From Nitrospira sp. (GTDB taxonomy: Bacteria; Nitrospirota; Nitrospiria; Nitrospirales; Nitrospiraceae), in the NCBI GenBank assembly GCA_020853775.1, contig JADYYH010000091.1:1-59498 (forward strand): a DNA stretch of 59,498 bases. Reading direction: 5' to 3'. Of this stretch, positions 2,712 to 59,266 are shown piece by piece (position 1 is the first letter of the stretch; each line of letters starts with the position of its first letter). The notes beneath the pieces were generated by a model. That model was given only the letters and a program-made list of their open reading frames with translations, did not search any database and was not told the origin of the DNA. A program made the translations under genes and the position numbers.

Positions 2712-2902
2712 GGCGGGAGTATACCGAAGGTGTGGCTGGGAGGAAAAGAGAATTTCCGAAAACGCCATCATCTGCAGGCGGAGAGCCTGTCCCTGCCGTC
2801 AGCCGCCGGCCGCGAGGCCGTAAATCCACGTGCTTGACGCCTGGTTTTGAGGGCCGGTACCATAGCCCATCAACGGGAATCCCTGGACGGAAAGGCGGAG
2901 GT

Positions 2903-3526: not shown

Positions 3527-3690
3527 ATCGTCCGGGCGACTCACGCAGTATTTCCCCGCGATCATTCTGATGCGCCCTCGGCTGTTGCCTGGACCAATGG
3601 CCTGATTTCCCGTCTCAGCGACGGAGCCCTCCGCCCGCCCGCTGATGTGTTGTCTGATATGGTGCTCGAATCGTCCTTTCTGGCGCCGGG

Positions 3691-4395: not shown

Positions 4396-4418
4396 GAATG
4401 GGTTGCTGGAGATAGCGC

Positions 4419-4826
4419 TTAGAACGATGAGACGGCGGGGCTTTTTGTCGCCTGGCGCCGACAATATTCATAACAGCTTGAAAGGACCAGGTCGCCGGAG
4501 AAGCGCACCGTCCCGCAGACCTGTCCCATGAGCAAGGCCCAGTCAGCAACATGGGCGGCCAATTGAGTCGGAGCCATCCCCTGCGTGCGAAACAGGTTGA
4601 TGGCGACCATGGAGAGGACCACCTTGAGATGAGATAAGGAGGGACCGTAGCTGAACACGTATTCATGTTGTCCCGTGAAGAGGAGTTGCACGCCATCCCG
4701 GGCTTTCATGCCGCGATGTCCGCAGTGAGGACAATACAGGCATTCAAGACCGCTACAGGAGTCATACCCGGCACGCACGTCCGATTCCATCATATGGCCG
4801 CAATGAGTCGCAGGACACAGCATCAT
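4419..4826 (-). CDS. Hypothetical zinc-ribbon-like protein
   Basis: A 135-residue protein that I do not recognise. The N-terminal 40 residues contain Cys/His pairs (CPATHCGH, then CLYCPHCGH) that look like a zinc ribbon. The central part is moderately hydrophobic and the C-terminus has further cysteines (SCYEYC). Start ATG 4826 is preceded by a GGGGGAG Shine-Dalgarno. It lies between a DUF2934 gene and an atypical LuxR regulator on the same strand, suggesting a shared transcript. Zinc binding is inferred from cysteine spacing only. Confidence 0.55.
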   Translation of the reverse strand: MMLCPATHCGHMMESDVRAGYDSCSGLECLYCPHCGHRGMKARDGVQLLFTGQHEYVFSYGPSLSHLKVVLSMVAINLFRTQGMAPTQLAAHVADWALLMGQVCGTVRFSGDLVLSSCYEYCRRQATKSPAVSSF

Positions 4827-4868
4827 GATGTTCTCCCCCAGGTAGTCGGTGCGTTGCGCAGTACGGTC

Positions 4869-5186
4869 TCAGGCGCGATGAAGCGAACGAGTCCCCGACC
4901 GGCCGGAGCCTTGTCCGTCTTGCGGGCCGGCCGCTGCCTGAACTCGTCGTTCCGCCTCCAGCCAATCTTCACAGTCGTAGCCATCCTGATGTCCTCGCTG
5001 CTGATAGAGCGTGTAGGCCAGCCGTTCGATTCGTGTTCTGATGTCGTCGGTGGTATCTGAGCTTTCGGCCTGAGGCGACGGCTGGAGCCGGTCCTTCCGT
5101 TTGGGTATCGCTCTGCTGGTGGCGCCTCGAGAAATGTTGCGTAGGGGTTCATCGGCGGCAGGTGACTGTGCATTCCGTTCTGGCAT
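4869..5186 (-). CDS. DUF2934 domain protein
   Basis: A 105-residue soluble protein with a DUF2934 domain in the middle: RIERLAYTLYQQRGHQDGYD followed by CEDWLEAER, matching the family pattern (R-I-x-x-x-A-Y-x-L-Y ... G-R/H-x-D-G ... D-W-L-x-A-E). The biochemical function of DUF2934 is unknown; such proteins are common as small genes in environmental bacteria. The flanks are polar and low in complexity. Start ATG 5186 follows AAGGAG. It belongs to the five-gene minus-strand cluster of small regulators. Confidence 0.75.
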   Translation of the reverse strand: MPERNAQSPAADEPLRNISRGATSRAIPKRKDRLQPSPQAESSDTTDDIRTRIERLAYTLYQQRGHQDGYDCEDWLEAERRVQAAAGPQDGQGSGRSGTRSLHRA

Positions 5187-5241
5187 GATGACTACTCCTT
5201 GCCGATCAGGCCGGCGTCTCAGGTGTGGCTATGAAGGTACG

Positions 5242-5670
5242 TTACTGAAGTCGGATGCAGGGTATGCCGAGCGTCGTCAGGAGGACCTTTTCCACCGGAT
5301 GTTCCCGCGGGAGGCCGGCGGGTTCCGTAGGCAGTGCGTCGATGGACTGAGAGACGCCGCTTAAGGGAGAACGCAGCGACGGTGTGAGGGCAAGAACAGG
5401 CGCTTGCGGACACAGCGCGTTGACGGTACGGAGTGCATCCATCGCCGGAGTGTCCCGGAGGGATCCACCGGAATCGTGACTGAGAAGAATGGCTTCCGGC
5501 TGAATTTCGCCGAGTTGCGGGAGTGTGGACTCCAGGTCTCGCACCAGTACGGCATGGTACCCTCTGGTGGCCAGGCAATCGGCCAATTTGAGCCCGAACT
5601 GCATCGCAGAATCGACAATCATGACTCGTGATCTTCCCGCTTGCTTGATAGGGTGCATCATGGGAGTCAT
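5242..5670 (-). CDS. Receiver-like (CheY-fold) protein
   Basis: A 142-residue protein starting at ATG 5670. It begins like a receiver domain (RVMIVDSAMQFGLKLADCLA) and has the beta-alpha rhythm of CheY proteins, with a strand EAILLSHDSGG at the phospho-acceptor position and VLALTPSL at the next strand. The acceptor region does not read as the usual D-x-x-M-P, so phosphorylation is uncertain. The start codon overlaps the stop of the upstream gene by four bases (ATGA), implying translational coupling. The open frame continues to 5997 but that part belongs to the neighbour in another frame. Confidence 0.65.
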   Translation of the reverse strand: MTPMMHPIKQAGRSRVMIVDSAMQFGLKLADCLATRGYHAVLVRDLESTLPQLGEIQPEAILLSHDSGGSLRDTPAMDALRTVNALCPQAPVLALTPSLRSPLSGVSQSIDALPTEPAGLPREHPVEKVLLTTLGIPCIRLQ

Positions 5671-6930: not shown

Positions 6931-9174
6931 TCACTCGTGGGACGGTTGTTCAAGAGGAATCCGCACTCGTACCGTGGTGCCCGATTCGCTATTGCCTGTG
7001 AAGGTGATGTTGCCGCCGAGCAGCAGGGCGCGTTCGCGCATACCGACCAAGCCCAGGGATTGGGGATCGGCCAGCTCGGTGTCCGTGATGCCGCGCCCGT
7101 TGTCGCGCACTTCAAGGACCAGCCCGCCCGCCTGCTCCTGAAGGGTGATCTCGACGACGGAGGCCTTTGCATGGCGCACCACATTGGTCAGGATTTCCTG
7201 AAAGATTCTAAACATGGCGGTCGATGCGGTCTGTGAGAGGGATGCGGACCGCAAGTAGACGTCGAGCCGGCATTGTATGCCGGTGCGTGACTGAAATTCG
7301 TGCGCCTGCCATTCAATGGCCGGGATCAGGCCGAGTTGATCAAGGACAATGGGGCGCAGTTCCGTGGCTATTCTGCGCACGGACTGGATCGTGGCGTCGA
7401 TGAGTTCGGAAATGGATTCGAGGCGCGTGTGCACAGTCGGCGTCACGACGGGGAGCTGATCGCGCAACAAGGAAAGTTCAAGCTTCACGCCGGTTAACGA
7501 CTGGCCGAGTTCATCATGGATCTCGCGGGCGATCAGAATCCGTTCTTCTTCTCGCACCGATTCCAGGCGGGCGCTCAGATTTCTCAGCTGATCATGCGAG
7601 GCGGTCAGTTGCTGCTCAGCCCGTTTGCGATCGGTAATGTCAAGAAAGACCACCACGGCGCCGGTGACCTGCCCCTGTTCGACAACCGGGAAGGAGGAGT
7701 ACTCCACCGGGAATGAGGTCCCGTCCTTGCGCCAGTACACTTCATCATTGACCTTGCGGCCTTTTCCATCCGCCAGTGTCTCGTGGATATGGCAGCGGGT
7801 CCGACGATACGCGCCGCCGTCGCCTAGGGAATGATGAATACGTTCGTGCATGTCCTGGCACAGCAGTTCATCGGGTGAAAACCCTAACATGCGCGATGCC
7901 GCTGAATTGATAAACGTGCAACGGCCCTGTCGATCCAGGCCATAAATGCCTTCTCCCGTGGATTCCAGCAGGAGGAGGCGGTCCTTGGCGAGTTGCTGGC
8001 GGATTTCTTCCGCCCGCTGTTTATCGGTAATGTCGGTGGCGATTCCGCAGAGCGCATACCCGCGGCCTTCAGCGTTACGCAAGGGAAATTTGACCACAAT
8101 GCTGGTGTGGGGGCCATCGTCGTGCAACGCCGTTTCTTCGAAACGCATCGGCGCGTCGGCTTCCAGCACCTTCCGGTCATTCGCGCGAAATGCCGCCGCC
8201 TGGTCGGGGGGAAAGATTTCCTCGTCAGTTTTACCCACCAGATCCTTTTGCGCCACACGGGAAACCGTCTCAAATTGCCGGTTGGCTTGGAGGTATCGTC
8301 CCTCCAGATCTTTGAGGAAGATTAAGGCAGGACTGTGATCCATGATCGCTCGAAAGCGGTTTTCGCTGTCCCGGAGGGCTTCATCCGTGCGTCTGGTTTC
8401 GGTAATGTCGCGAAAGACCACGACGCCGCCTTTGATCAGTCCCATCTCATCGCGTAAGGGTCGGGCGGACACATCCAGCCATTGGTCGTTACGCTGATGC
8501 CGGCGCTTGAGGAGCAGCGTCGCGCCGGTTACAGATTCTCCACGGATGGCCCGTGCGAGCGGGATGTCCCGAGTCGCGCAAGGTGTCACCCTGTCAGGAA
8601 GAAAGATGGTGAAGTCATCGGACCACTGACCGACGGTCCGTTTGGCCGGGGCACCTCCCAGGATGTGCTCTGCTGCGGGATTCCAGACGCGAAAGGTGCC
8701 GGTTTCATCGGCCATCACCACACCGTCGGCCATGCTGTTGAGGACCGATTGGAGGAACCGCGTCTGTTCGCGCAGCTCTTCTTCCAGCCGCTTGCGGCCG
8801 ACGGCATACCGCAGCGCGCGCGCGAGAAGGGGGGCCGAGGTCTGTCCTTTGATGAGATAGTCTTGCGCTCCGGCCTGAATGAGATGCAGCCCTAATTCTT
8901 CATCCTCCAGTCCGGTCATCAGCACAATGGGAATCCCCTGCGCTGCGGCATGCATCCTGATCAGGGTTTCGATGCCCTGGCTGTCGGGCAAGGAGAGATC
9001 GAGCAGAATCACATCGATCAGGGATTCGCTCAGAGATCGGATCCCCGCATCGAGACGGCCCACGTGCGTGAGGGTGAACTGCCCGTCCCCGGTTTGCGCG
9101 AAGAGCTCACGCACCAGGCGAATGTCCCCCGGGTTATCTTCAATCAACAGGACATGGATCGGCCGGCTAGTCAT
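6931..9174 (-). CDS. REC-PAS-PAS-PAS-HisKA_3 sensor histidine kinase
   Basis: A 747-residue cytosolic signalling kinase. An N-terminal receiver ([10 protein letters not shown]; acceptor in [13 protein letters not shown]) is followed by three PAS domains (about 145-270, 275-395 and 400-525) and a NarX-like dimerisation domain with the phospho-His in [20 protein letters not shown]. The C-terminal ATPase domain shows VVRHAKAS and EVRDNGRGI. No membrane segment is visible, so it senses internally or receives phosphate at its receiver. ATG 9174 overlaps the stop of the upstream single-domain response regulator (ATGA). The HisKA_3 type matches the NarL-type regulator that follows. The order suggests signal flow from the upstream pair, but this is inference. 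Confidence 0.9.
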
Positions 9175-9635
9175 GCGGCTCCATGCTGATGGGATACCGG
9201 CAACACCACGATCCCCAGCCAAAAGTCTTCGATCGAACGCACCACCCGCACGAACTGGTCCAGGTCGACCGGTTTCGTGATGTAGCAGTTGGCATGGAGA
9301 TTATAACTTTTCAGCACATCCTGTTCGTCTTGCGAGGTTGTGAGCACCACCACCGGGATGCGCTTCAAATTGTCGTCGGCCTTGATATCGGCGAGCACTT
9401 CGCGGCCGTCTTTTCTGGGCAGGTTCAGATCCAGGACGATGAGGTGCGGATGCGGCGCCGCGGTATAGGAGCCCTGCCGACGGAGAAAGGCCAAGGCCTC
9501 GACCCCGTCCTTGACGACCGTCAGATGATTGATTACCTTGGCTTCCTTCAAGGCCTCGATGGTCAAACGAACGTCTCCGGGATTGTCTTCCACCAGGAGA
9601 ATTTCAATCGGTTTCACCAGTTCGGGGACGACCAT
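9171..9635 (-). CDS. Single-domain response regulator (Rcp1-like)
   Basis: A 154-residue protein consisting of one receiver domain. It has the acidic pocket ([12 protein letters not shown]), the acceptor Asp in [13 protein letters not shown], the conserved Thr/Ser strand VVVLTTSQ and the Lys in YITKPVDL. The long insert and NPGDVRL signature are typical of regulators paired with phytochrome-like or cache kinases. No output domain is present, so it probably passes phosphate or controls a partner protein. ATG 9635 is preceded by AAAGGAG. It lies 31 bases after the cache kinase gene and overlaps the next kinase gene by four bases. Confidence 0.9.
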
Positions 9636-9666
9636 CGTGATGGCTCCTTTGGCTTGCGAACGTGAA

Positions 9667-11445
9667 TTATTCGACTCCTGTTGTATCACCTTCTGAACGA
9701 GTGTTGGAGATCTTCGGCGACGGGTCGGGAATGCTGAACCAGAAGGTCGCCCCTTTCCCTGGTTCAGCCTCCACCCACATGCGACCCCCATGACGTTCGA
9801 CAATCTTCTTGCAGATTGCCAGGCCAATGCCGGTTCCCGGGTATTCCGCCCTCGTATGGAGCCGTTGGAAAATGACAAAAATCCGCCCGGCAAATTGCGG
9901 GTCAATGCCGATTCCCTCGTCGCGAACCGAAAAGAGCCATTCATCCTCTTTTCGTTGGGCCGATATGTGGATGCGTGGCGGCTGGTCGCCGTGAAACTTG
10001 ATGGCATTGCTTAGAAGGTTTTGAAAGACCTGCGTCAACTGTTTGGCATCGCCTCTGACCGTCGGCAAGCGGTTGTGGGTGATGACGGCCTGGCTTTCCT
10101 TGATGGCGCTCAGCAGATTATCCATTGCATATGAGAGCACCGCACCCATGGGTGTGGGCTCAAACGGCTGGCTTCCCGTGCTGACCCGGGAATAGGCGAG
10201 CAGGTCCTGAATCAGCTTCTGCATGCGGGTGGCGCCATCGACGGCATAGGCGATGAATTCATCCGCATCGGCGTCCAGTTTCCCTCGATAACGCTTGGCG
10301 AGGAGTTGGGTGTAACTGCTGACCATCCGTAGCGGTTCTTGGAGGTCGTGCGACGCCACATAGGCGAATTGCTGGAGATCGGCATTGGAGCGTCCCAGCT
10401 CAGCCACGGATTTCTCGAGGTCCTGCCGCGTTTTAATGAGTTCGGACCGTTCGCGCCCCAATTTCCACGAAACCAGGATGCCGAATCCCGTCAAGGGCAG
10501 GATGACGAGGAGGCCGATGCCGCCGACCGTCCAGAGCAAGCGATCGACAGGCGCATAGACTTGGTCATGGCTTTGACGGAACAGCACAATCCAGTCAAAT
10601 CCTGGAAAATCTCGATAGCCTCTGGTCGAGGCATACCCGGTGACAACCGAGTGCCCGTGGCGGTGGTGGACCTCCTCGAGAAATCCTGACTGGTTCCGGT
10701 CCGAGGCCGCTCGGGATCTCGAGGGAATCTCCAAGACCAATGGTCCCTTCGCACTGTCCGCTGAGACCTGTTTTTCGCTGATGATGGCTCCGTCCCGAGT
10801 GAGCAGCAACCAGTCATAGGGGGTTTGGCCGTACCGCAGTCTGCCTTCCTGTTCGAAGATCGAGCGCAGATTTTCGATCGGAACCCGGCTGGCTACGACA
10901 CCACGAAACTCTCCTCGTGCCCCGTAGATCGGTGCCATGTATCCGACCGACTTTGCCCCGGCCGCAGGAGACACCGGTTCCAAGTGGATGTGTCCTGACT
11001 GCCGAACGGCTTCGAAGGCCGCCCCATTGATCGGTGCGGCGCCTGGCGCGGGGTGGGTGTCGGTAGCCGCGATCACTGTTCCGTCGGCATCGGTGATGCC
11101 CAGCCAGCTGTAATACCAGTAGAGCCGGTGGTAATGCTGGAGCCGGGCGGTTCTCTCTTCCGATGCGCCTTCCCGGATCACCCCGTCGTTGGCAAACAAC
11201 TGGATATCGCCATAGCGCTCGAACAGGACGCGATCGACGGTGTCTGCGACGGTTGCCGCATTCATGGCGAGTTCGTTCCCTCGTTCCGCGACCAGCATGG
11301 CGCGCAGGAAGGACAGGGCATACAACCCCAAGGCGGTGGCGATGAAAAAGCAGAGCACGAGGAGGGTCGGCAATAGGCGTTCCGTCCACCGGCTGTTGGT
11401 ATGGAATGTTATGGGCTGCACGGTTGTTGTCGGGAGCGCGATCAT
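9667..11445 (-). CDS. Membrane sensor histidine kinase with extracytoplasmic cache-type domain
   Basis: A 592-residue kinase. A transmembrane helix (about 23-45) and a second (about 310-335) bracket a periplasmic region of some 260 residues that resembles double-cache sensors ([20 protein letters not shown]). The cytoplasmic half has a short linker, then HisKA with [20 protein letters not shown] (phospho-His in SHD) and an HATPase domain with N, G1 and G2 boxes ([29 protein letters not shown]). The HDLQEPLR signature is shared with phytochrome-type kinases that pair with Rcp1-like regulators, which is what follows it. The ligand is unknown. Confidence 0.9.
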
Positions 11446-12017: not shown

Positions 12018-12037
12018 AGGACCGGAGAAAAAGAAAA

Positions 12038-12061
12038 GGGGCGCTTCGGATGAAGCGCCCC
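12038..12061 (-). terminator. Rho-independent terminator of the RRM-protein gene
   Basis: A perfect ten-base stem (GGGGCGCTTC / GAAGCGCCCC) with a four-base loop. On the minus strand it is followed by a TTTTCTTTTT tract (12037 down to 12028). It sits 30 bases after the RRM gene stop. It has no T-tract on the plus strand, so it primarily serves the minus-strand gene, although its stem may also slow transcription from arfB. Confidence 0.85.
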
Positions 12062-12090
12062 TTCGGAGACGAGACGAATCTCGTCATGAA

Positions 12091-12703: not shown

Positions 12704-13573
12704 TCAATTGCCGGAGGAGGCGGTCCGGAGCGAGGAGGCCAGCCCTAACTTCGACAAGGTATAGATCAGCCACTTCGACGGATCGAAATTGTACCAGAGC
12801 GGTCCATTGCGGTAGTCGCTCGGGTAGGTATGGTGGTAATTGTGGTACCCCTCGCCGAAGGTCAGTAGGGAGACGAACCAGGAATTGCGGCTTGAATCGG
12901 ACGTGCCGTAGGGTTGGTCGCCCCAGATGTGGCAGACCGAATTGATACAGAAGGTTGAATTCAGGACCGCAAACGTGCGGCCGACGCCGGCCAGCATGAA
13001 CCCCCCGATTCCACCCTGCCACCCGTTATGGAGGAAACCAATGATAAAGGGGAGGGCAAGGCCGACCACGACGATGGCCGCATAGTTGCGGTGTTGCCAC
13101 ATGGCCACCGGGTCTTGCATCACGCGGGAGCCGAACCGTTCATCATTACAGGGAACGGGATTGAGGAGCCAGCCGCAATGGCTATACCAAAATCCCCGCT
13201 TGGCATTGTACGGATCAGCAGGATCATCACAATGCGCATGATGGCGCAAATGATCAGCCGTCCATTTCGCGCCGGAGTTCTGCAGGGCCCAACCACCGGC
13301 GACCAGCAGGCAGCCTTTCACCCAATTAGGACATTCGAAGCTGCGATGCGTCAACAGCCGGTGGTATCCGACGGTGATGCCCAGGCCGGTGACGACGTAC
13401 AGGACGGCAAACATCGTCCAATCCAGCCAGGAATATCCATAGAGGAGTCCATACCCCGGGACGCAGATCACCGAGCCTGCGACGATCGACCAGAAGAGGA
13501 GGTAGGTCCAGAACTTATGATGCACGCGGTGGACGATGTGCGCCGGAACCGGGGTCGGGGAAACGTGTTGCAT
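12704..13573 (-). CDS. Acyl-lipid / acyl-CoA delta-9-type fatty acid desaturase
   Basis: A 289-residue integral membrane di-iron desaturase that introduces a double bond in acyl chains. The three histidine boxes are HRLLTH (71-76), HLRHH (108-112) and HNYHH (about 244-248), all in the spacing of the delta-9 family. Four hydrophobic segments are apparent (about 22-40, 52-70, 145-165, 170-190). It shares its strand with the downstream RRM gene, about 290 bases away. Cold adaptation of membranes is the usual role of the family and would fit an adjacent cold-type RNA-binding protein, but co-regulation is only inference. Confidence 0.92.
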   Translation of the reverse strand: MQHVSPTPVPAHIVHRVHHKFWTYLLFWSIVAGSVICVPGYGLLYGYSWLDWTMFAVLYVVTGLGITVGYHRLLTHRSFECPNWVKGCLLVAGGWALQNSGAKWTADHLRHHAHCDDPADPYNAKRGFWYSHCGWLLNPVPCNDERFGSRVMQDPVAMWQHRNYAAIVVVGLALPFIIGFLHNGWQGGIGGFMLAGVGRTFAVLNSTFCINSVCHIWGDQPYGTSDSSRNSWFVSLLTFGEGYHNYHHTYPSDYRNGPLWYNFDPSKWLIYTLSKLGLASSLRTASSGN

Positions 13574-37794: not shown

Positions 37795-37825
37795 GACGGC
37801 CCGTTCCGGAGGGGAACGGGCCGTC
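37795..37825 (-). terminator. Rho-independent terminator of the SH3-like protein gene
   Basis: A perfect 13-base stem (GACGGCCCGTTCC / GGAACGGGCCGTC) with a five-base loop. On the minus strand it is followed by GTCTTTTTTTG. It begins 28 bases after the stop of the SH3-like gene at 37854, and separates it from the HAD-hpnE operon on the same strand. Confidence 0.9.
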
Positions 37826-48000: not shown

Positions 48001-48909
48001 TCACACGCTGAACGGTTGCTGCCGGAGAAAACGCGCGACGGCGCCCAGCGTAAACAGATTGGGCGACTGGCTGGCCGGCAGGCCCGCCTTCACCGCCGCA
48101 TGGAATTTGGCATAGTTCCCGCGATACTGGCCATGGTTCCAGACGTTGAGCACCTGTTCGGTGAAGGCGCCGTTCTGTTCGCCGTCCATGGAGGTTTGGT
48201 TATCCTGGCAGCCCGAGATGAGAATCACGCTGGGATTAAACTTCTTGGCGATCGCCGTGAGGCGCGGGCTCACGGCGAGTTGTGCCAGCACGCTGTCCGG
48301 GTCCGCGGTGGCGGCCTTGCCGGCGACTTTGGCCACGTCTCGCTGCAACCGGTCGTAAAACTGCTGGTGTTCGCGATACGTGCGGAGGGCGACGGCCGGG
48401 GGCATCATCTTCGAGCGGCCAATCGCGCCGGGATCAGCGGGGGTTCGTGGCCTCGCCCGGGTCACGGTGCCGCTGTGGCAGCTGTCGGAAAACACCAGAA
48501 TGCGCACGCCCGCCGAAAAACGGCTTAATTCGAAATACAACTCATCGTCGATGAGCTGGCCGTCGTAGAGGCACCAGGTCTCGTCCTGCTTGTCGATTTC
48601 TTCTCCCGTGACGTCGGGCACCTGACCGCCATGGCCGGAGTAGGTGAGGAAAAAGAGATCGCCCTTCTTGAGTTGCTTGGCGGCCTTCCGCATTGCGGCC
48701 AGCATGTTGGCGCGTGTGCCTTGCTTGGTCATCAGCACGGTGGATCTCATTCCCTGCGACTTGGCAATGGCGGCCATGTCTTTGGCGTCGAACTCGCAGG
48801 CGGCCAATTCACCGCTCCAGCCGCCATAGGCGGCGGGGCTCACGGCGTTGAGGCCGATGTGTAAGGAGAGGGCTTTCGATTTCCTGGTAGCTGATGCGGC
48901 TTTTGCCAT
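48001..48909 (-). CDS. Caspase-family (metacaspase-like, C14) peptidase
   Basis: A 302-residue cysteine peptidase of clan CD. The catalytic His lies in [12 protein letters not shown] (His93) and the Cys in FSDSCHSGT (Cys144), with the typical beta-strand spacing. [17 protein letters not shown] and [17 protein letters not shown] are the N-terminal landmarks. No signal peptide is seen, so it is cytosolic. It has no fused domain such as CHAT-TPR. Prokaryotic relatives can cut after Arg/Lys and some drive cell death or stress responses. Here it lies near the CRISPR locus, but on the opposite strand and more than 1 kb from cas3. Confidence 0.9.
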
Positions 48910-49336
48910 ACGTACCTCCTTGGTCGACAGGCTCTAGTGTTTGAATGGTTTACATGAGGGGCAGATGATCGCGGTACGGTAATGGTTACGAAGTAATCTG
49001 TCAACGGAGCGGTGTGGAAATACTGGTATTTGAGACCTCTCTGGCCACGTGTCCGGTTTCGATGTGCCGGGCCTCCACTGCCTCAATTGTGTCTCAAGAA
49101 AAATATTTCCCGATCGCCGCGCGCTGTGACCTCGGATGTCACGCCGGAGTGCTAAGGTCGGGCCACGAAGCATGCCGGCGGACAGACGCGGGCGACGGAA
49201 CAAGGCACAACCCGCAGGACCGAAGAGGCACGATCGATGAGATGGTTCACATTTATTTGCCTAGTCAGAAAGGCTTATTTATCACAGGACAGGCGTCCTC
49301 ATTTTTGTTACAGTGCGCTGCCGTTCGGCGGGGCTT
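48910..49336. other. 427-base stretch without a recognisable gene
   Basis: Between the divergent caspase-like and zinc-ribbon-like genes I see no convincing coding frame. It should hold both promoters. Its second half contains CACATTTATTT (49248-49258) and TTATTTATCACAGGA (49275-49289), both shared with the leader of the small basic protein gene at 47214. A short inverted repeat (AGGAC-AGGC-GTCCT) starts at 49286. Confidence 0.6.
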
Positions 49337-49621
49337 ATGGCGTGGAATGAGGAGGCGCAGATCAGGTGCCGGTTCCAATTCATCTGTCCGCAGCAATGGA
49401 GTCTGCTGCAGCCAACGGAGCAGGACGACGTGCGACATTGTCCCGCATGCGATCGAGACGTGCGTCTCGCCCTCTCGGAGGCAGACGTGCGGCGGCACAA
49501 TGCGCAGGGGCATTGTCTTGCGGTGCCGGTGGCGCGGGAGCATGAAGCAGCTGACTCTGATGAACCGTGCTGGCTGGTGGGCAGGATGGAACCGCCGTAT
49601 CACGCAGAGAAAGAAGGATGA
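49337..49621 (+). CDS. Small Cys-rich (zinc-ribbon-like) protein
   Basis: A 94-residue protein starting at ATG 49337, after GGCGGGG. It has a C-x-F-x-C-P segment (IRCRFQFICPQQWSLLQPT) and a ribbon-like RHCPACDRDVRLALSEADV followed by AQGHCLAVP. I recognise this pattern from a small conserved bacterial family that usually reads CRFxFxCPxxWExLxPT ... CxxCxxxVxL ... A-x-G-x-C-V-A-V. No function is known. It is not clearly part of the cas operon, which starts 328 bases downstream. Confidence 0.7.
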   Translation: MAWNEEAQIRCRFQFICPQQWSLLQPTEQDDVRHCPACDRDVRLALSEADVRRHNAQGHCLAVPVAREHEAADSDEPCWLVGRMEPPYHAEKEG

Positions 49622-49806
49622 CGTGCACCCACGAGAGCGGAGGGTGGGTGATGTGGGCGAATAGGGAGGGGCGAGGTGAACCCGCGAACCATGAATCGAC
49701 GCAACCTCCGCAAAACAATGGTAGCCCTGGTGCCCGGGCTGGTCTCTCCCGACACTGCGAAGTAGGCGGATGTAGGGAGAACGGAAAAGACGGTGATTGA
49801 TCGCAT

Positions 49807-49950
49807 ATGAATCCAATACGGTCTCCTGAACAATCCGGAAAACGTTATCTCCCTTGTGTTCGTCAGGTTGCTCATGGATCATTCCTGATCCATGAGTTTG
49901 AAGAACATTTGCATGCGGTGGCTACCATTGTGGAAGAGGTGCCGCACTAA
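49807..49950 (+). CDS. Possible 47-residue ORF overlapping the cas3 start
   Basis: A 48-codon frame from ATG 49807 ends with TAA at 49948-49950; the last base is also the first base of the cas3 ATG (TAATG), an arrangement typical of translationally coupled genes. The peptide begins MNPIRSPEQSGKRYLP and ends VATIVEEVPH; no family is recognised. The ribosome binding site is weak (GGTGA), and a perfect inverted repeat lies inside the frame at 49871-49896. It could be a leader peptide, a small regulator, or chance. Confidence 0.35.
   Translation: MNPIRSPEQSGKRYLPCVRQVAHGSFLIHEFEEHLHAVATIVEEVPH
49871..49896. promoter_or_regulatory. Perfect 11-base inverted repeat upstream of cas3
   Basis: CTCATGGATCA and TGATCCATGAG form a perfect 11-base palindrome with a TTCC spacer, 53 bases before the cas3 ATG. 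The symmetry and spacing fit an operator for a dimeric repressor or activator of the cas operon. As RNA it would form a strong hairpin in the leader. No T-tract follows, so it is not an intrinsic terminator. Confidence 0.6.
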
Positions 49951-52256
49951 TGCCTAATTATCGCCCAGCCCCTGAGCCGCAATTCTCTCAGTACTTCGCA
50001 CACAGCGCAAATGGACACGGTGACTGGCACCGTCTGGCAGAGCATCTCGTTGGCGTCTCAAAAATGGCAAAAGAATTCCTGCAGGGATGGAACGGCGCGG
50101 AGGAAGCGGCACTTGCTGGTTTATTGCATGATCTTGGGAAATATGGGGACCGCTTTCAGGCACGGTTGCACGGCAAAGATAAGGGGTTGGACCATTGGTC
50201 GCAGGGCGCATCGCTGGCTCTGAGACACCATGCAGTTGCTGCTGCGTTAGCTATCGAAGGTCATCACATTGGCTTGCAACGCGGGAGTAAAGACTCCTTG
50301 AGGCGGTTACTGCCAGTCAATCTCTCTGCCGCTGTTTTACCAGGGCTAGCTCTCAGTGAACCCAACGTGGAACGACTAGAATCACTTGCCGCCGGAGATG
50401 GAATTGAATTCAGTTCGCCATCTAGTTTTGTTCTTAACTCGTGGGCGCAGGCAGTCTCCGCCATGCTTGATGTGCGGCTGCTCTTTTCGTGTTTGGTTGA
50501 TGCAGATTTTCTCGATACTGAGTCGCACTTCGAGGGTGACGCACAAGGCAAGCGTCCTCGTCCTGAGGGGCCGAAGTTGGATGCCAGTGCGGCACTTGCT
50601 GCGCTTGATGCACACATGGCGGCGTTGCGCGGTGCCACTGGCGCGCAGGTGGCGGTGCGGCAAGCACGGGAAACCTTGTGGGGCGCAGTAATCCGTGCTG
50701 GGCAGGCGGAACGTGGGGCGTTCACGCTGACCGCGCCGACTGGTTCCGGCAAGACTCTGGCGATGCTCAAGTTCGCGTTGGAACACGCGAAGAAGCATGG
50801 ACTGAACCGGATCGTTCTAGCCGTCCCTTTTCTGACGGTCATCGAGCAGACGGCGCGTATTTACCGGGCGATATTCAAGTCCTTCCCAGATAATTTCGTA
50901 TTGGAACACCATAGTTTGGCTGGGTTGGGGGCCGAAGCGGAACAGCGGGACGCTGAGGAAGCAAACGAACGCCAGCGCCGTCTGCTTGCCGAAAACTGGG
51001 ACGCGCCAATTGTGCTGACCACTAACGTGCAGTTGCTGGAGTCGCTCTTTTCCAATCGGCCGTCGAGTTGCCGCAAGTTGCACAACCTCATGGACTCGGT
51101 AATCCTGTTCGACGAGGCGCAGAGCCTGCCACAGCACTTGGCGGTACCTACCTTGGCAGCACTGTCTCACCTGTCGGCGGCATATCGCTCCACCGTAGTT
51201 TTTGCCACCGCGACACAACCTGCGTTCGATACTCTGAACGAGGCTGTAAAAAAGTACGCTGTGCATGGATGGCAACCGATCGAAGCCGTACCGGAACACC
51301 CGGCACTGTTCGCAGCACTGAAACGTGTCGCAGTACGCTGGCCAGCAACTGGAGAAAAGCGCACGTGGACTCAACTCGCGGCTGAATTGCGAGACGTGGA
51401 TCAGGCGCTGGTGGTGGTGAACCTTAAGCGCCATGCACTTGCTCTGCTCAATGAGCTGACTCGGACGGAAAACATGTTCCATCTCTCCACCAACTTGTGC
51501 GCCGAGCACCGGCGGGCGGTAATGGAGAGGGTCCGAGCTCAACTTGCAGCTGGATTTCCCTGCCTCCTCGTTTCGACTCAATGTGTTGAGGCAGGGGTGG
51601 ACGTGGATTTCCCCGTTGTCTTCCGCGCCATGGCGCCGCTGGAGTCTGTTGCACAAGCGGCAGGACGCTGTAACCGGGAAGGCAGGCTCAATGAACAAGG
51701 CCGTTTTGGCGAGGTGGTTGTTTTTGAACCGGATGAGGAAGCCGGGTGGAGAAAACAATTCCCGACGCATAGCTACTATCAAGCGACTGAACTCACAAAA
51801 ACCCTGCTTACTATACGTGGCAATCTGGACATTAATGAGCCCGAAGTATTCCGGGCCTATTACCACAGGCTCTACAATCTGAACGATCCAGCCAGTCAAA
51901 ACGCCGATCTTACGAGAGCAATTCAGGAGCTCGATTTCGTTGAGATCGCTAAGGCTTACCGCCTCATCGTTCAAGATGCCATTCAGGTGCTGGTGCCATG
52001 GGCGAGCCGACACGACGAATTTCTGGAGTTGCGAACGGAAGCCGATCGACACGGTATCAGCGCCAACTGGATGCGCCGTGCCCAAGGGCTCGCCGTCAGT
52101 GTTTATCGCACAGCTGATGGTCCACCCGCCTGGGCAATTCCGGCGAAGCTGCGGCGCGGTGGCGTTTCCGACGAGTGGTTCATTCTTGAAGGAGATTTTT
52201 ATGACGACACTCTAGGGTTGAATCCACCCAAGGGTGAACAGGTGTTCATCGCATAG
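49950..52256 (+). CDS. cas3: CRISPR-associated nuclease/helicase Cas3 (type I-C)
   Basis: A 768-residue protein with an N-terminal HD nuclease and a C-terminal superfamily 2 helicase. It unwinds and degrades target DNA after recruitment by the type I-C complex. The HD motif is LLHDLGK (His60-Asp61). Walker A is TAPTGSGKT (about 262-270), motif II is FDEAQSLP (about 387), and motifs V/VI appear in VSTQCVEAGVDVDFPVVFRA and QAAGRCNREGR. Both enzymatic parts are intact. The ATG overlaps the stop of a 47-residue ORF. First recognised gene of the cas operon. Confidence 0.97.
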   Translation: MPNYRPAPEPQFSQYFAHSANGHGDWHRLAEHLVGVSKMAKEFLQGWNGAEEAALAGLLHDLGKYGDRFQARLHGKDKGLDHWSQGASLALRHHAVAAALAIEGHHIGLQRGSKDSLRRLLPVNLSAAVLPGLALSEPNVERLESLAAGDGIEFSSPSSFVLNSWAQAVSAMLDVRLLFSCLVDADFLDTESHFEGDAQGKRPRPEGPKLDASAALAALDAHMAALRGATGAQVAVRQARETLWGAVIRAGQAERGAFTLTAPTGSGKTLAMLKFALEHAKKHGLNRIVLAVPFLTVIEQTARIYRAIFKSFPDNFVLEHHSLAGLGAEAEQRDAEEANERQRRLLAENWDAPIVLTTNVQLLESLFSNRPSSCRKLHNLMDSVILFDEAQSLPQHLAVPTLAALSHLSAAYRSTVVFATATQPAFDTLNEAVKKYAVHGWQPIEAVPEHPALFAALKRVAVRWPATGEKRTWTQLAAELRDVDQALVVVNLKRHALALLNELTRTENMFHLSTNLCAEHRRAVMERVRAQLAAGFPCLLVSTQCVEAGVDVDFPVVFRAMAPLESVAQAAGRCNREGRLNEQGRFGEVVVFEPDEEAGWRKQFPTHSYYQATELTKTLLTIRGNLDINEPEVFRAYYHRLYNLNDPASQNADLTRAIQELDFVEIAKAYRLIVQDAIQVLVPWASRHDEFLELRTEADRHGISANWMRRAQGLAVSVYRTADGPPAWAIPAKLRRGGVSDEWFILEGDFYDDTLGLNPPKGEQVFIA

Positions 52257-52264
52257 GAGGAGAT

Positions 52265-53035
52265 ATGGCTAACGGCACACACACGTTGGAGGTCTGGGGC
52301 GATTTTGCCTGCTTTACGCGGCCAGAGATGAAGGTTGAGCGGTTCTCCTACCCAGTCATCACGCCATCTGCGGCACGTGGCATCTTCGATGCCATCTACT
52401 GGGATGGGCTACGGGAACGGAAGGGCAGGGTAAGCATGATGCGTCCCTATTTCCACTGGCAGGTGACTCGTATCGAGGTATTGGAACTGCCCCGCTACAT
52501 TGCGCTGCGGCGCAACGAAGTAAAAGACAAAATGCCTGCGGACCGCACGCTGAAGGCCTGGATGGAAGGGCACGAACAGCCAGAACCCATCTGGGCGGAC
52601 GGCAGTAAAGATGAACTCGGCACCGATCAGAAAGGCCGCACCCAGCGCCAGACCATGGCGCTCAAGAACGTGCGTTATCGACTCACCGCGCAGATCGTCC
52701 CCAAGTCCGGTTTCGCCTCCGACTACGGCAAGTTCAACGCTTGCTTCGAGCGTCGGGCCAAGCAGGGAAAATGTTTTCAACAACCCTATTTGGGTTGCCG
52801 CGAATTCCCGGCGTTCTTTGAGTATGTCGAATCGCCGGACTCCAAAGTCCAGCTACCCGCCGCCCTGGATCAACATCTTGGTTTCATGCTCTACGACGTG
52901 TTCGACCTGCGGAAGGATGCCGTGAAAGATAATGACAAACCATTCATTACGCTGTTTGACGCCCACATTCGCAACGGCGTGCTGGACGTTCCGTCGTTCG
53001 ACAGCTCGGCGGTAAAGAAGCCGGGGAGGCCATAG
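52265..53035 (+). CDS. cas5c: Cas5c (type I-C)
   Basis: A 256-residue RAMP protein. In type I-C, Cas5 replaces Cas6: it cuts the pre-crRNA within the repeat and stays on the 5' handle. The N-terminus has the Cas5 pattern (LEVWGDFACFTRPEMKVERF), and the later segment YPVITPSAARGIFDAIYWDG is the Cas5c signature. Tyr and Lys/His residues suited to RNA cleavage are present. It starts eight bases after cas3, with GGAGGAG before ATG 52265. Confidence 0.95.
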   Translation: MANGTHTLEVWGDFACFTRPEMKVERFSYPVITPSAARGIFDAIYWDGLRERKGRVSMMRPYFHWQVTRIEVLELPRYIALRRNEVKDKMPADRTLKAWMEGHEQPEPIWADGSKDELGTDQKGRTQRQTMALKNVRYRLTAQIVPKSGFASDYGKFNACFERRAKQGKCFQQPYLGCREFPAFFEYVESPDSKVQLPAALDQHLGFMLYDVFDLRKDAVKDNDKPFITLFDAHIRNGVLDVPSFDSSAVKKPGRP

Positions 53036-53037
53036 TC

Positions 53038-54783
53038 ATGTTGCAGGCATTAATGAATTATGGGAATGGCCTCGATTCCGAACCGGGTTTCAAAACCCGT
53101 GAGGTGCACTGGTGCATCGAACTGGGTGCTGATGGACGATTTCTGAATGTATTGCCGCTAGGCGACGGCAAACGCGGGGTGATGCTACCTCGTTGCACGG
53201 AAATGCCCGGCACGAATGCGGGCGGGAAATCCCATTTCCTCGTGGAAACCGTGCAAACGGTGGCGCTTCTGTTCAAGACCAATGAAGAGGCCAAAAAGAT
53301 TGCCAATACCAAGAACAAACACCGATTCTTCGTTGATCTGCTCCGCAAGGCTTCGGTCTCGATTCCCGCGCTCATTCCGGTTGTAAGTGTGCTGCAAGAT
53401 GATGGTTTGTTCACACAACTTCGTGAAGCCCTGACTCAGCACAAAGCCAAACCCGCCGATTGGCTGGGCTGGCGGGTGGATGGTGTCGATCCACGGGAGG
53501 ATAAAACCGTTCAGGCTTGGTGGCGCGAATGGCGCAAGAAGGATATGGAGGGAGGCAAACCAAATTCCACATCTTCTGACCAGGGCGATATGGTTTGTTT
53601 CCTCACGGGTAATGCAACTCAAGCCTTGCCAACCCACCCTAAGATTACGGGGCTATCCGGTGTTGGTGGCTTGAGCATGGGCGATGTGATGGTGGGTTTC
53701 GATAAAGCCGCTTTCGGCTCTTTCGGTTTAGATCAATCGGCCAACGCCGCCATGAACGCCGAAGCTGCTCAGAAATATGTGGACGGCCTCAATGCTTTGA
53801 TTCGCAACCACTCCCGCAAGCTCGCCAATGCGTTGGTCGTTCACTGGTTCAAGGAACAGGTCGGCCCACAAGACGATCCTCTGGAATGGTTGAACGGTTT
53901 CGAGTCGCAGGAGCAAACGGAAGCGGCTGCGCTGGGGGCTGCGCGTCGTCTGCTTGAATCCATCCGCCAAGGCGAACGCGTTGATTTGGGCAACAATCAT
54001 TACTACGCACTGGCACTTTCGGGCGCATCAGGGCGAGTGATGGTGCGTGACTGGATGGAAGGACCTTTCGAGGATTTGGTGCGCAATGTCGAAGCATGGT
54101 TTGCCGATCTCGCCATTGTTGCCCGCGACGGCAAAGGGCAAGCTCATGATCCCAAGTTCATGGCGGTGTGCGGAGCATTGGTGCGCGAACTGAAGGACTT
54201 GCCCGCGCCTACAAGCACTATGTTATGGAAGGTGGCGGTGCAACGTCTGCCCATCCCGCAACCGTTAATGGTGCAGGCGCTAGCGAGGTTCCGTAACGAT
54301 CTGGTCGATAAGGACCAACCCCCCTTCAACCACGCCCGCATGGGACTCATCAAAGCATATTTCGTTCGGCTTCAACCTGGAGGTGCCCACACTATGACTG
54401 CATATCTCAATCCCAATCATCCAGAACCTGCCTACCACTGCGGGCGATTACTGGCAGTGTTCTCCAACCTGCAACGCGCCGCGCTGGGAGACGTGGGCGC
54501 AGGCGTTGTGCAGCGCTACTACGCTGCTGCCAGCCAGACACCGGGACTGATTCTCGGACGCTTGACCAGCAATGCGCGTAACCACTTGGGCAAGCTAGAA
54601 GGCGGCTTGGCCTGGTGGTATGAAAATCAGATCGCGGACGTCATGGGCCACTTGGGCGACGGCGCGCCACGCATTCTCGACCTCAGCGGCCAGGGGTTGT
54701 TTGCACTCGGTTACTACCAACAACTTGCTTCGTTACGATCGGGTAAGAAAACTAGCGAAACCGCACAAGGAGAAAACCAATGA
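53038..54783 (+). CDS. cas8c: Cas8c/Csd1 large subunit (type I-C)
   Basis: A 581-residue large subunit of the surveillance complex, which recognises the PAM and recruits Cas3. Family landmarks are [19 protein letters not shown] at the start, [19 protein letters not shown] and the C-terminal segment with [16 protein letters not shown]. Type I-C also produces an internal small subunit (Cas11) from the 3' end of cas8c in studied systems; an internal start near the C-terminal third is possible here but not demonstrated. It starts two bases after cas5c and overlaps cas7c by four. Confidence 0.95.
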
Positions 54784-55775
54784 GCGCCATTCAGAACCGT
54801 TACGAATTTCTGTATCTCTTCGATTGTGAAAACGGCAATCCGAACGGCGATCCGGATGCCGGTAACAGCCCGCGTATTGACCCAGAAGACATGCACGGCC
54901 TGGTTTCAGATGTGGCCATTAAACGGCGGGTGCGCAATTACGTGCAGGCCGCGTTTGGCAATGAGGCACCCAATGCTATTTTTGTCGAGCACTCGTCCAA
55001 CTTGAATAAGCCGATCACTGCAGCGCACGAAGCAACAAGCGGTGCCCCTGCTGGTGGCGGAAACAGAGCGCAAGTTGGAAAAGCTCGTGTTTGGATGTGC
55101 CAACAGTTTTTCGATGTGCGTACTTTTGGCGCAGTCATGTCCACCGGCCCAAATGCCGGACAGGTGCGCGGCCCAGTACAGGTTGCTTTCTCGCGTTCAG
55201 TAGATCCAATCCTGCCCATGGATGTTTCAATTACCCGCATGGCTGTTGCCGAAAAAGTATCCGGTGCCAAGTCGGTTGCGGACTACCAGAAGTGGGAAAA
55301 CGAGCAAGAAGAAGACAAGCTCCGCACCATGGGCCGCAAGTCCCTCATTCCGTATGGCCTCTATGTCGCCAAAGGGTTCGTGTCCGCCAATCTCGCACAA
55401 GGAACCCTATTTTCCGACGACGACCTCACCCATCTGTGGGAGGCACTGGCAGGCATGTGGGAGCACGACCGCTCCGCTTCCAAGGGCATGATGTCCTGCC
55501 GGGGGTTGTTTGTGTTTAAACATGTGGGCACCGACAGCAATCAGGAACAACGTAAGCGTCAAGCCATGCTCGGATGCGCGCCTGCACAAGCGTTATTGGA
55601 CCTCGGACGCGTCATCGACGTGAAGCGTAGTGAATCGGCAATGAAAGAGGACAACATCGGAAGTCCGCGCAAGTTCGCGCATTACGCGGTATCCACGAAT
55701 ACGGCCAATCTTCCCAAAGGCGTGGAGTTGTGGGCGTGGGATGACAGTAAGGGGACGCTCGTCAAGCAATCGTAG
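54780..55775 (+). CDS. cas7c: Cas7c/Csd2 backbone subunit (type I-C)
   Basis: A 331-residue RAMP protein that forms the helical backbone along the crRNA. Signature segments are [20 protein letters not shown] at the N-terminus, [15 protein letters not shown], and [20 protein letters not shown] followed by [20 protein letters not shown]. The ATG overlaps the cas8c stop (ATGA). AAGGAG lies upstream. Length and motifs are standard for the family. Confidence 0.96.
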
Positions 55776-55783
55776 GCTAAGCG

Positions 55784-56422
55784 ATGTTGCAGGATGATGC
55801 CGATCGGGACTCGATTCCTATTTCCGCACTGAATCACTACGCCTATTGTCCACGACGGTGTGCGTTGATCCATGTGGAGCAGACGTACACAGAAAATGTG
55901 TACACCATGCGCGGTCGCGATCTTCATGAGCGAACCGACCGAGAAGGAGAGAGCGGTTGGGAAGAGGGGATACGGGTAGAACGCGCTCTGCCGCTCTGCT
56001 GCAAGCGATTAGGTCTGATTGGCAAAGCTGATGTCGTCGAGTTTCACGGCGAAACTCCTTATCCCGTCGAATACAAGTCTGGCCCGAATCGACAATTTGA
56101 TAATGACGATTTGCAACTCTGCGCCCAAGCCATATGCCTGGAGGAAATGCTGAGCCAAAGCGTTCCGCATGGTGCTATCTTTCACCATAAATCCAGAAGA
56201 CGGCGCGAAGTGGTATTTACGGCCGCATTGCGAACGAGAGTGGAAGAAGTTGTGGCAGCAATCCGATCCATGATTGTCGAGAAGACGCTTCCTCCTCCGG
56301 TGAATGATCATCGCTGTGAACACTGTTCATTGCGCGAAGCTTGCATGCCCTCGGTGATCGGCGAGCAGCAGCGTGCAGTGGCGCTGGTTCGCAATCTGTT
56401 CGTCGTGAAAGACAATCCCTAA
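55784..56422 (+). CDS. cas4: Cas4 exonuclease
   Basis: A 212-residue Fe-S RecB-fold nuclease that trims prespacers and helps choose the PAM during adaptation. Cysteines for the Fe-S cluster are in YAYCPRRCALIH (N-terminal) and CEHCSLREAC (C-terminal). The nuclease core has GKADVVEFHGETPYPVEYKSG (RecB motif with Asp, Glu and Lys). It starts eight bases after cas7c. Presence next to cas1 and cas2 is normal for type I-C. Confidence 0.95.
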   Translation: MLQDDADRDSIPISALNHYAYCPRRCALIHVEQTYTENVYTMRGRDLHERTDREGESGWEEGIRVERALPLCCKRLGLIGKADVVEFHGETPYPVEYKSGPNRQFDNDDLQLCAQAICLEEMLSQSVPHGAIFHHKSRRRREVVFTAALRTRVEEVVAAIRSMIVEKTLPPPVNDHRCEHCSLREACMPSVIGEQQRAVALVRNLFVVKDNP

Positions 56423-56429
56423 GGCATCA

Positions 56430-57461
56430 ATGCACCAGCTGCTCAATACACTGTATCTCACGACGGAGGGGAGCTATCTTCGCCTGGATCACGATACCCT
56501 CCGGGTTGAAGTCGAACGGGAAACGAAGCTCCAGGTGCCGATCCACCACTTGGGCGGCATCGTCTGTTTTGGCGATGTGCTGGTCAGCCCGGCCGCGCTC
56601 GCGCGATGCGCTCAGGATGGCCGCTTCGTGGTCTTTCTCGATCGCAATGGCCGCTTTCAGGCGCGCGTGGAAGGCCCGATCTCGGGCAATGTGTTGCTGC
56701 GTTGTGCGCAACATGCTGCCATGCGCGAAACGGATACGACGTTGAGGATCGCCCGCCACATCGTCGGCGGAAAAATTCAGAATAGCCGCCAGATCATCTT
56801 GCGTGCCGCTCGAGACACCGACGATCCGAGCGATAGTGAAGCGTTGCGACAGACGGCCGAGGCGCTGGCAAATGTACTGGGTCGCGTGCCGCTCGCGGAG
56901 GACCTGGACTACCTGAGAGGCTTGGAAGGCGAGGCCGCGCGAAAATATTTCGCCACGTTCGACCGTATGGTCCGTGAAGACCGCGCTATGTTTACGCTGA
57001 ATGGTCGAAACCGGCGGCCTCCGACCGATCCGGTCAATGCGCTCTTGTCGTTTCTTTATGCCTTGCTGATGAACGATTGTGTGGCGGCGCTGGAGGGCGT
57101 CGGCCTTGATCCGCAGATGGGATTCCTGCATGCGCTACGTCCGGGCCGAGCAGCCTTGGCCTTAGACTTGATGGAAGAGTTACGGAGTGTCTTTGCCGAT
57201 CGACTCGCACTCACGTTGATCAATCGAAAGCAGGTGGCAGGCAGCCAGTTTCACGCGCGACCTGGCGGGGCGGTGCATCTGGAGGATGCAGCCCGCAAAG
57301 CGGTCATCGTGGCCTACCAGAAACGTAAGCAGGAAGAGATCACACATCCGGTCTTGGATCAAAAGATGCCGCTAGGCTTGGTTCCCCACGTGCAGGCTCG
57401 TCTGTTAGCCCGCGTGCTGCGCGGAGACCTGGAGGCCTATCCGCCGTTTCTGTACCGGTAG
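56430..57461 (+). CDS. cas1: Cas1 integrase (type I-C)
   Basis: A 343-residue spacer integrase. The catalytic metal residues are in GLEGEAARKYF (Glu), MGFLHALRPGR (His) and ALALDLMEELR (Asp/Glu), the known Cas1 pattern. With Cas2 it forms the complex that inserts spacers next to the leader. The nearby array with 19 distinct spacers shows that adaptation has occurred. It starts seven bases after cas4. Base composition appears richer in GC than cas3-cas7. Confidence 0.97.
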   Translation: MHQLLNTLYLTTEGSYLRLDHDTLRVEVERETKLQVPIHHLGGIVCFGDVLVSPAALARCAQDGRFVVFLDRNGRFQARVEGPISGNVLLRCAQHAAMRETDTTLRIARHIVGGKIQNSRQIILRAARDTDDPSDSEALRQTAEALANVLGRVPLAEDLDYLRGLEGEAARKYFATFDRMVREDRAMFTLNGRNRRPPTDPVNALLSFLYALLMNDCVAALEGVGLDPQMGFLHALRPGRAALALDLMEELRSVFADRLALTLINRKQVAGSQFHARPGGAVHLEDAARKAVIVAYQKRKQEEITHPVLDQKMPLGLVPHVQARLLARVLRGDLEAYPPFLYR

Positions 57462-57470
57462 GAGGATGGC

Positions 57471-57761
57471 ATGAATGTTTTGATCGCCTATGACGTGGCG
57501 ACGGAATCAACTGGCGGTCGGCGGCGCCTACGGAAGGTGGCACAAGCCTGCAAGGATTTCGGCCAACGAGTACAGAAGTCGGTGTTCGAATGCGCGGTCA
57601 GTGAGATGCAATTTGAAGAACTCCTCCGTCGCCTCGTCGAGATTATCGATGAGAAGGAAGATAGTTTGCGGGTCTATCGATTGGTAGAGCCCAAAGAAAA
57701 ATATGTACAGGTGTTCGGTGTGGACACCTCAGTCGATTTTGGCGAGCCGTTAATTTTGTGA
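57471..57761 (+). CDS. cas2: Cas2
   Basis: A 96-residue ferredoxin-fold protein, the structural partner of Cas1. The N-terminal strand is [20 protein letters not shown] with the conserved Asp, followed by [20 protein letters not shown]. The length is standard. It starts nine bases after cas1, with AGGAGG before ATG 57471. Last gene of the cas operon; the CRISPR leader begins right after it. Confidence 0.96.
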
Positions 57762-57939: not shown

Positions 57940-59266
57940 GTAGCGCCCGTCCTTCGGGGCGGGCGAGGATTGAAACACCCTGCAGAATATCCGCGCGCAC
58001 GGCAGCACGATGTAGCGCCCGTCCTTCGGGGCGGGCGAGGATTGAAACGTTAAAGGCGCACGCGGATAACGAGGTTATCAAAACGTAGCGCCCGTCCTTC
58101 GGGGCGGGCGAGGATTGAAACTCACACGACGACGTACTCGGACGGCTCCGCGGTGGTAGCGCCCGTCCTTCGGGGCGGGCGAGGATTGAAACATAGCGGC
58201 TCTTGATGTCGCCGCGCAGCAGGCCGTAGCGCCCGTCCTTCGGGGCGGGCGAGGATTGAAACGAGGAGGCGCACCCGCATGAGCGAGCCGCCATCCCCGT
58301 AGCGCCCGTCCTTCGGGGCGGGCGAGGATTGAAACTGGCACGCCGATGCCGAGCGCTGGATGCTCGAGGAGTAGCGCCCGTCCTTCGGGGCGGGCGAGGA
58401 TTGAAACCAAGCTCCGCATCGATGAAGCCGCCGCATTGCTCGTAGCGCCCGTCCTTCGGGGCGGGCGAGGATTGAAACAAGGTCTGGCACGCGGTGCAAC
58501 GCAGCTGGCTCGTGTAGCGCCCGTCCTTCGGGGCGGGCGAGGATTGAAACTTCGATCAGAATGCACTCGGGATCCGGCTGTAGGTAGCGCCCGTCCTTCG
58601 GGGCGGGCGAGGATTGAAACTATCGGTGTCCATTCAGGCGAGAGCGGGAACAGGGTAGCGCCCGTCCTTCGGGGCGGGCGAGGATTGAAACGGAAATCCA
58701 CCCGGCGCGTTGACCGAGAAAAAAGGTAGCGCCCGTCCTTCGGGGCGGGCGAGGATTGAAACCCATCAATTCGAGTTGCCGGTTCAGAATCGTTTGGTGT
58801 AGCGCCCGTCCTTCGGGGCGGGCGAGGATTGAAACTTGAAGAGCCCGGTCATGCGAACGCCGTTGTCGTTGTAGCGCCCGTCCTTCGGGGCGGGCGAGGA
58901 TTGACACTCACTGAACTAAATGGCTAGGCTTGGCTCGTTCGACGTAGCGCCCGTCCTTCGGGGCGGGCGAGGATTGAAACGACTTCGTCGCGCGGTACTG
59001 ATCCGTCCCTTCCTGGTAGCGCCCGTCCTTCGGGGCGGGCGAGGATTGAAACAGACCAGACAGGATGGGAACACGCGTCTGTCGAAGTAGCGCCCGTCCT
59101 TCGGGGCGGGCGAGGATTGAAACTTGATCCCCGGCACGATGGGCGAAGAGTTCAGCGTAGCGCCCGTCCTTCGGGGCGGGCGAGGATTGAAACTCAAACA
59201 TCCTGGCGTATACTACGTCGGGGGAAAAAGTAGCGCCCGTCCTTCGGGGCGGGCGAGGATTGAAAC
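57940..59266 (+). CRISPR. Type I-C CRISPR array, 19 full repeats
   Basis: Nineteen 37-base repeats, beginning GTAGCGCCCG, with CGGGGCGGGC in the middle and ending GGATTGAAAC, separated by 18 spacers of 33-36 bases. The repeat contains an inverted pair (GCCCG...CGGGC) that can form a hairpin for Cas5c processing. Repeat starts are at 57940, 58012, 58085, 58156, 58226, 58299, 58371, 58442, 58514, 58584, 58655, 58726, 58799, 58871, 58944, 59016, 59087, 59157 and 59230. The repeat at 58871 ends TTGACAC instead of TTGAAAC; the others appear identical. Spacers are all different by eye. Apparent open frames across the minus strand are artefacts of the repeat. Confidence 0.98.

Follow-up and report, generated by a model that had tools for sequence, protein, structure and literature searches.

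The effector and adaptation modules of CRISPR-Cas systems exchange modularly, and translational coupling by overlapping stop and start codons (TAATG, ATGA) occurs in operons. For modular exchange, a CRISPR-Cas classification paper serves as the reference (PMC12669027). Two further settings are comparable. In Vibrio cholerae, effector genes of the T6SS are displaced sequentially and leave orphan remnants behind (PMC5361080), and in core defence hotspots, for example those of P. aeruginosa, one chromosomal position holds different defence systems in different genomes (PMC10250203).

The locus studied here lies in a stretch of 59,498 nucleotides from Nitrospira sp. (contig JADYYH010000091.1, assembly GCA_020853775.1), the whole of which we call the window, and consists of a type I-C operon preceded by a short open reading frame (ORF) that is very probably the stump of an earlier cas3. 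It resembles modular CRISPR exchange in that effectors appear to be swapped against a shared cas4-cas1-cas2 (cas1 is 90-95% identical where cas8 is 22-29% identical), but the left border has here been traced to the opening codons of cas3, and many genomes retain the stump as an ORF. With the V. cholerae T6SS it shares cassette exchange at one locus with pieces of earlier occupants left behind, sometimes in tandem. Arrays of immunity genes remain in that system, whereas here a 5' stump of 20-125 codons lies upstream, with its stop meeting the next start. Like the core defence hotspots, the locus is one chromosomal position occupied by different defence systems from genome to genome, but its border is a fragment of a defence gene and not a conserved core gene. 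The geometry is that of translational coupling in operons, and the upstream ORF contains a Shine-Dalgarno-like AAGAGG; the upstream partner in this putative coupling is a gene stump rather than a functional gene. Word searches of open-access papers found none that describes cas3 5' stumps. The swapping of CRISPR modules is usually inferred from conflicting trees, whereas at this locus the left border itself survives in the DNA and can be followed nucleotide by nucleotide. Such borders are readable in many genomes, and the tandem ones look like successive exchanges.

The type I-C operon and the history of its locus

The operon downstream of the ORF is a complete type I-C system (cas3-5-8-7-4-1-2 plus array), encoded on the plus strand. 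The cas3 gene (49950-52256; Pfam Cas3 C-terminal, DEAD and HD) is followed by cas5, cas8c and cas7 (52265-55775), by cas4-cas1-cas2 (55784-57761) and by a CRISPR array of 19 repeats of 37 nt (57940-59266). On the other side of the ORF, the chromosomal flank contains a caspase-domain, metacaspase-like gene on the minus strand (48001-48909; Pfam Peptidase_C14), and between this flank and cas3 there is a small ORF with a CPxC motif (49313-49621, plus strand) that has counterparts of 51-72% identity next to the cas loci in several relatives. The metacaspase-like gene is 83-89% identical beside the cas loci of eight genomes (G015, G013, G005, G027, G028, G006, G007 and G023). Many genomes of the genus conserve it next to the cas locus.

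The comparison set contained one genome per species, with several draft assemblies among them. Genomes of a resident type and genomes of an incoming type have the upstream flank (metacaspase, folB-like and PHP genes) in common, so that different occupants alternate at a single chromosomal locus. By identity, the cas3, cas5, cas8c and cas7 of the window belong with the incoming type (66-93%, versus 22-47% to the resident type). The cas3 itself is 88% identical to that of G023 and G011 and 81% identical to that of G006, and its relatives reach the Betaproteobacteria. Relatives of the incoming operon are found in G023, G011, G006, G007, G101 and G086 as well as in proteobacterial MAGs, that is, also in other contexts.

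Across all occupants in the genus, Cas1 and Cas2 are 89-95% identical, and the cas1 of the window is equally close to both types (90-95%). In the proteobacterial relatives, the effector proteins are 61-82% identical but Cas1 only 53-59%, which indicates that effector modules moved independently of cas1. At the DNA level, the window is incoming-like from cas3 to the array (about 87% identical to G023), interrupted only by a resident-like patch (about 56321-56860, delimited in 180-bp identity bins) that covers the end of cas4 and the start of cas1. The right border is therefore a mosaic and not one point, and the patch may be read as a sign of recombination around cas4/cas1. A move of the effector genes only was considered for the genome of the window (G000) and rejected, as the incoming-like DNA continues to the array outside this patch.

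The same incoming cas3 has a different predecessor in G023 and G011, where, as read directly from the DNA, it is preceded by a fragment comprising 16 codons from the 5' end of the CPxC ORF. The stop of this fragment overlaps the cas3 start by 8 nt in L061 (G011, about 1050-1110) and in L060 (G023).

The 47-codon ORF upstream of cas3

A preliminary description of the window had reported a 47-codon ORF fused by TAATG to cas3, with a perfect 11-base inverted repeat inside it, 53 bases before cas3, and both are present as described. The ORF (49807-49950, plus strand) runs from ATG to TAA, and its stop shares one base with the cas3 ATG at 49950 (TAATG at 49948-49952). When compared by tblastn with intact cas3 genes of the same genus, it matches their first 44 codons with identities of 68% (G015), 61% (G013), 56% (G021), 54.5% (G005) and, over part of the length, 50% (G027). 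The E values for these five resident N-termini range from 1e-7 to 1e-16, and the cut falls at codon ~42-44. Resident-type cas3 is 34-36% (tblastn) to ~40% identical to the cas3 that now follows the ORF. The intact parental type occupies the same chromosomal locus, as identified by the metacaspase flank, in G015, G013, G005 and G027. No intact resident cas3 was found in G000, where the matches are the stump, the incoming cas3 and one unrelated helicase.

A segment of DNA kept from the displaced locus (49753-49933, plus strand), comprising the cas3 leader and codons 1-42 of the old cas3, is 72-79% identical to the sequence spanning the cas3 start in G005, G015, G013 and G021. The similarity to resident-type DNA stops at 49907-49930, and that to the incoming type starts at 49927-49957, or at 49934-49935 in a local comparison with G086 and G101. 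The ends of the two similarities place the exchange junction at 49922-49943, and a short microhomology at the border (GAG..TGCC, read directly) prevents a more exact placement. From these borders and the N-terminal match, the ORF is identified as a stump, left by a displaced cas3 that was cut around codon 42. That it is such a 5' stump and, jointly, that the core of the stump is an exchange border is a conclusion we hold with high confidence. A search for the donor of the exact junction in the window did not find one, a Pfam search of the stump as a protein domain gave no match, and a scan of 49200-50000 with a sigma-70 promoter model, which is uninformative for this organism, found no promoter.

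The stump carries 5 unique amino-acid changes at columns that are invariant among its relatives, including LAHV to LPCV, versus 0-2 in the others, so it is no longer constrained as Cas3. Its frame is nonetheless free of stops and frameshifts. An alignment with relatives had been suggested as a means of recognizing a peptide by its conserved codons. Codons are indeed common to the stump and its relatives, because those relatives carry intact cas3, and they give no support to a peptide. Neither a conserved dedicated peptide nor regulatory codons were found; the homology is to cas3, and with its changes at otherwise invariant columns the ORF is a truncated cas3 N-terminus and not a dedicated regulatory peptide. 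Stumps of this kind would call for caution before they are annotated as small proteins.

The last codons of the ORF together with AAGAGG and TAATG fit the leader of the incoming operon (49934-49952, plus strand), which consists of the Shine-Dalgarno-like AAGAGG, a 10-nt spacer and TAATG, because the same cas3 lineage has such a leader elsewhere. In G086 the layout is the same, with AAGAGG(N10)ATG preceded by TA, and in G101 it is similar (AGAGG...TAATG), with a stump frame that stops elsewhere. This would fit an account in which the stump is an inert scar, a neutral leftover with an unselected junction, the TAATG having been brought in by the leader of the incoming operon itself. The changes at invariant columns point the same way, and many starts read ATGA, which is an automatic stop in one frame. 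We give this account slightly less than an even chance, and what speaks against it is the behavior of the junctions when they are pooled, as described below.

The palindrome within the stump

The perfect inverted repeat has arms of 11 bp and a 4-nt loop (CTCATGGATCA-TTCC-TGATCCATGAG; 49871-49881 and 49886-49896). It lies in stump codons 22-30, and its right arm ends 53 nt before the cas3 ATG. Among perfect repeats with arms of 11 bp or more and a loop no longer than 10, the window contains three independent ones, versus ~0.5 expected from Markov-1 sequences of the same length, so that the palindrome alone is only mildly unusual. The two other repeats lie at 12036-12063 and 37795-37825 of the window and have arms of 12 and 13 bp.

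According to the preliminary description, translation of the small frame would melt this hairpin and could so set Cas3 output, or else the palindrome may be an operator. The first proposal, taken as one of a dedicated 47-codon peptide, agrees with the TAATG coupling and with the stable hairpin of 11-12 bp in the predicted fold. However, the peptide is the N-terminus of a cas3, the AAGAGG site lies outside the hairpin and is not covered by it, and RNA folding of this stretch does not stand out (z -1.8). None of the relatives has the hairpin in perfect form, whether in stumps or in intact genes; it is either imperfect or missing there, and an Rfam search of the region gave no match above threshold. 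We consider this form of control very improbable. An operator that binds a regulator of the cas operon would be consistent with the perfect dyad and with the excess of such repeats in the window, but the symmetry has not been kept in relatives. The genus relatives form 9, 9, 8, 7, 6 and 5 of the 11 pairs, and 1-8 are formed elsewhere, so a dyad retained with compensation is not seen, and the site lies in a coding segment of the relatives' intact cas3. An operator at this position is just as doubtful as the hairpin.

The palindrome is encoded by the codons for GSFLIH, and two changes specific to G000 complete it. As judged from the aligned codons, it is a by-product of these and has no separate role. 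Quasi-palindrome correction during replication could be the source of the completing changes.

Repression by a partially matching crRNA-like guide is a known principle in type I CRISPR systems, and Cascade guided in this manner might repress the operon at its leader. However, the longest stretch that any spacer shares with 49200-49960 is at most 11 nt, and this interval contains no degenerate repeat. With no spacer or repeat match in this interval, it was rejected as a candidate control site, and control of this kind is scarcely credible here.

cas3 stumps in related genomes and their junctions

A profile of the cas3 N-terminus was searched across 175 genomes of the family, and about 35 stumps, some of them degenerate, were counted by hand in 27 of these. 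Directly behind the stumps there are other I-C lineages, type I-E cas3 and Hma genes (PADLOC HmaA/HmaB), and a Gp49/HigB-like toxin is joined to a stump by an ATGA overlap. YhcG nuclease (73 nt), HsdM (117-146 nt) and a type I-G protein (554 nt) are found further behind, and toxin-antitoxin genes are also present among the genes that follow. In L066 (G108), of the same family, 2 nt separate a cas3 stump from the start of an Hma-like system (HmaA helicase and HmaB methylase; 7888-11316 and 2377-5478, minus strand). With the full-length resident cas3 as the query, 24 orphan cas3 fragments of at least 45% identity were found in the family, all of them N-terminal, and none came from other parts of the gene at that identity.

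Eight genomes have two stumps 0.9-2.1 kb apart. Tandem arrangements at this spacing, of two stumps or of a stump and an intact cas3, occur in L067, L066, L071, L107, L108, L106, L068 and L111, with toxin-antitoxin, nucleotidyltransferase-like or YhcG genes in between, as if the locus were recording successive exchanges. In other families of the phylum, where stumps were read from open frames of fewer than 150 codons, similar stumps precede cas3 or cas5 and often end just past the HD motif GLWHDLGK. A search of 11 genomes with an HD-motif DNA pattern gave no matches and was uninformative, and a match in G124 was rejected as a stump, since its peptide reads by eye as a helix-turn-helix protein. 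In genome scans, stumps would mark loci of defence-system exchange.

Upstream and downstream DNA reassort inside a stump core of ~80 bp, which makes the stump a recurrent exchange border. The first stumps of G072 and G108 have right sides that are 93% identical over 325 nt and left sides that are unrelated, and those of G060 and G085 have right sides 95% identical over 217 nt and left sides of different classes. At the I-E junctions of G078, G129 and G121 the right sides are 84-85% identical over about 300 nt (G078 and G129, 84% over 313 nt). On the left, the second stump of G085 and the start of the intact G060 cas3 are 94% identical over 162 nt, beyond which one continues into HsdM and the other into the whole of cas3. 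The left sides of the second stumps of G072 and G108 are 93% identical and lead to I-C cas5 and HmaA, and those of a G066 stump and the intact G068 gene are 98% identical. We infer homologous recombination through the core from these DNA mosaics.

The recurrent short core, the tandem copies 0.9-2.1 kb apart and the reassorted flanks would also be expected if the core were an attachment site for an integrase. However, the positions of the cut range widely, over codons ~20-125, and in genomes outside the family they are often found past the HD motif, so that there is no base-exact crossover, and the conservation of the core DNA is only that expected of codons and homology. No integrase was noticed when the ORF lists at the inspected junctions were examined by eye, and a search of viral contigs for a relative of the stump core gave no match. 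We regard site-specific recombination as improbable.

In relatives, this position is held by another I-C lineage, whose cas3 begins with the leader and codons of the stump, and in the window a different I-C operon now begins no more than ~10-28 nt from the cut end of the stump. Under the preferred reading, incoming modules would have been swapped by recombination at the 5' end of cas3 with the resident leader kept, and modules that carry a stump may recombine through it, with the stump as a short left homology arm and cas4/cas1 as the right arm. The stump is probably still translated. A stump frame that stops at the new start might let terminating ribosomes help cas3 initiation, or might avoid an out-of-frame run-in.

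At 32 stump-to-gene junctions, the distance from the stump stop to the next start was determined for the true frame, with the two shifted frames serving as the control. The stop lay within 5 nt of the next start in 16 of 32 true frames and in 9 of 64 shifted frames (p about 0.001), a comparison that depends on the choice of start codon. With in-frame fusions excluded, the counts were 16 of 32 and 9 of 56 (p 0.0009); such fusions would have been missed among the true frames because short frames were selected. The difference is weaker once related junctions are collapsed to 24 (42% versus 13%, median p 0.013), and permutation of the frames within junctions gave p 0.02. At no junction does the true frame run more than 60 nt into the next gene. 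Since 16 of the 32 junctions have more than 5 nt between stop and start, tight coupling is not obligatory.

The occurrence of true-frame stops near the next start beyond the control suggests that the stumps are translated and that stop-start junctions are favored, and it argues against an unselected junction. Taken by itself, the coupling step might equally well be right or wrong. Of the coupled start proposed in the preliminary description, the stop-start arrangement stands, as one favored over shifted frames in the pooled junctions, whereas hairpin-set Cas3 output does not.

We propose tentatively, as a possibility that may well be wrong, that the 5' end of cas3 is a portable plug in the phylum. 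A stump of 20-75 codons, carried or acquired by defence modules of several kinds, would provide the homology through which a module is swapped into a resident cas3 locus. Its translation into a stop on the new start would also let the resident promoter and the flow of ribosomes serve the incoming system. If stumps do aid expression, they would show how a foreign multi-gene defence module is switched on at once after landing.

A variant of these junctions is present in L058 (G028), where the stump at 12834-12989 has an in-frame internal deletion and retains the ATGA overlap with the next cas3.
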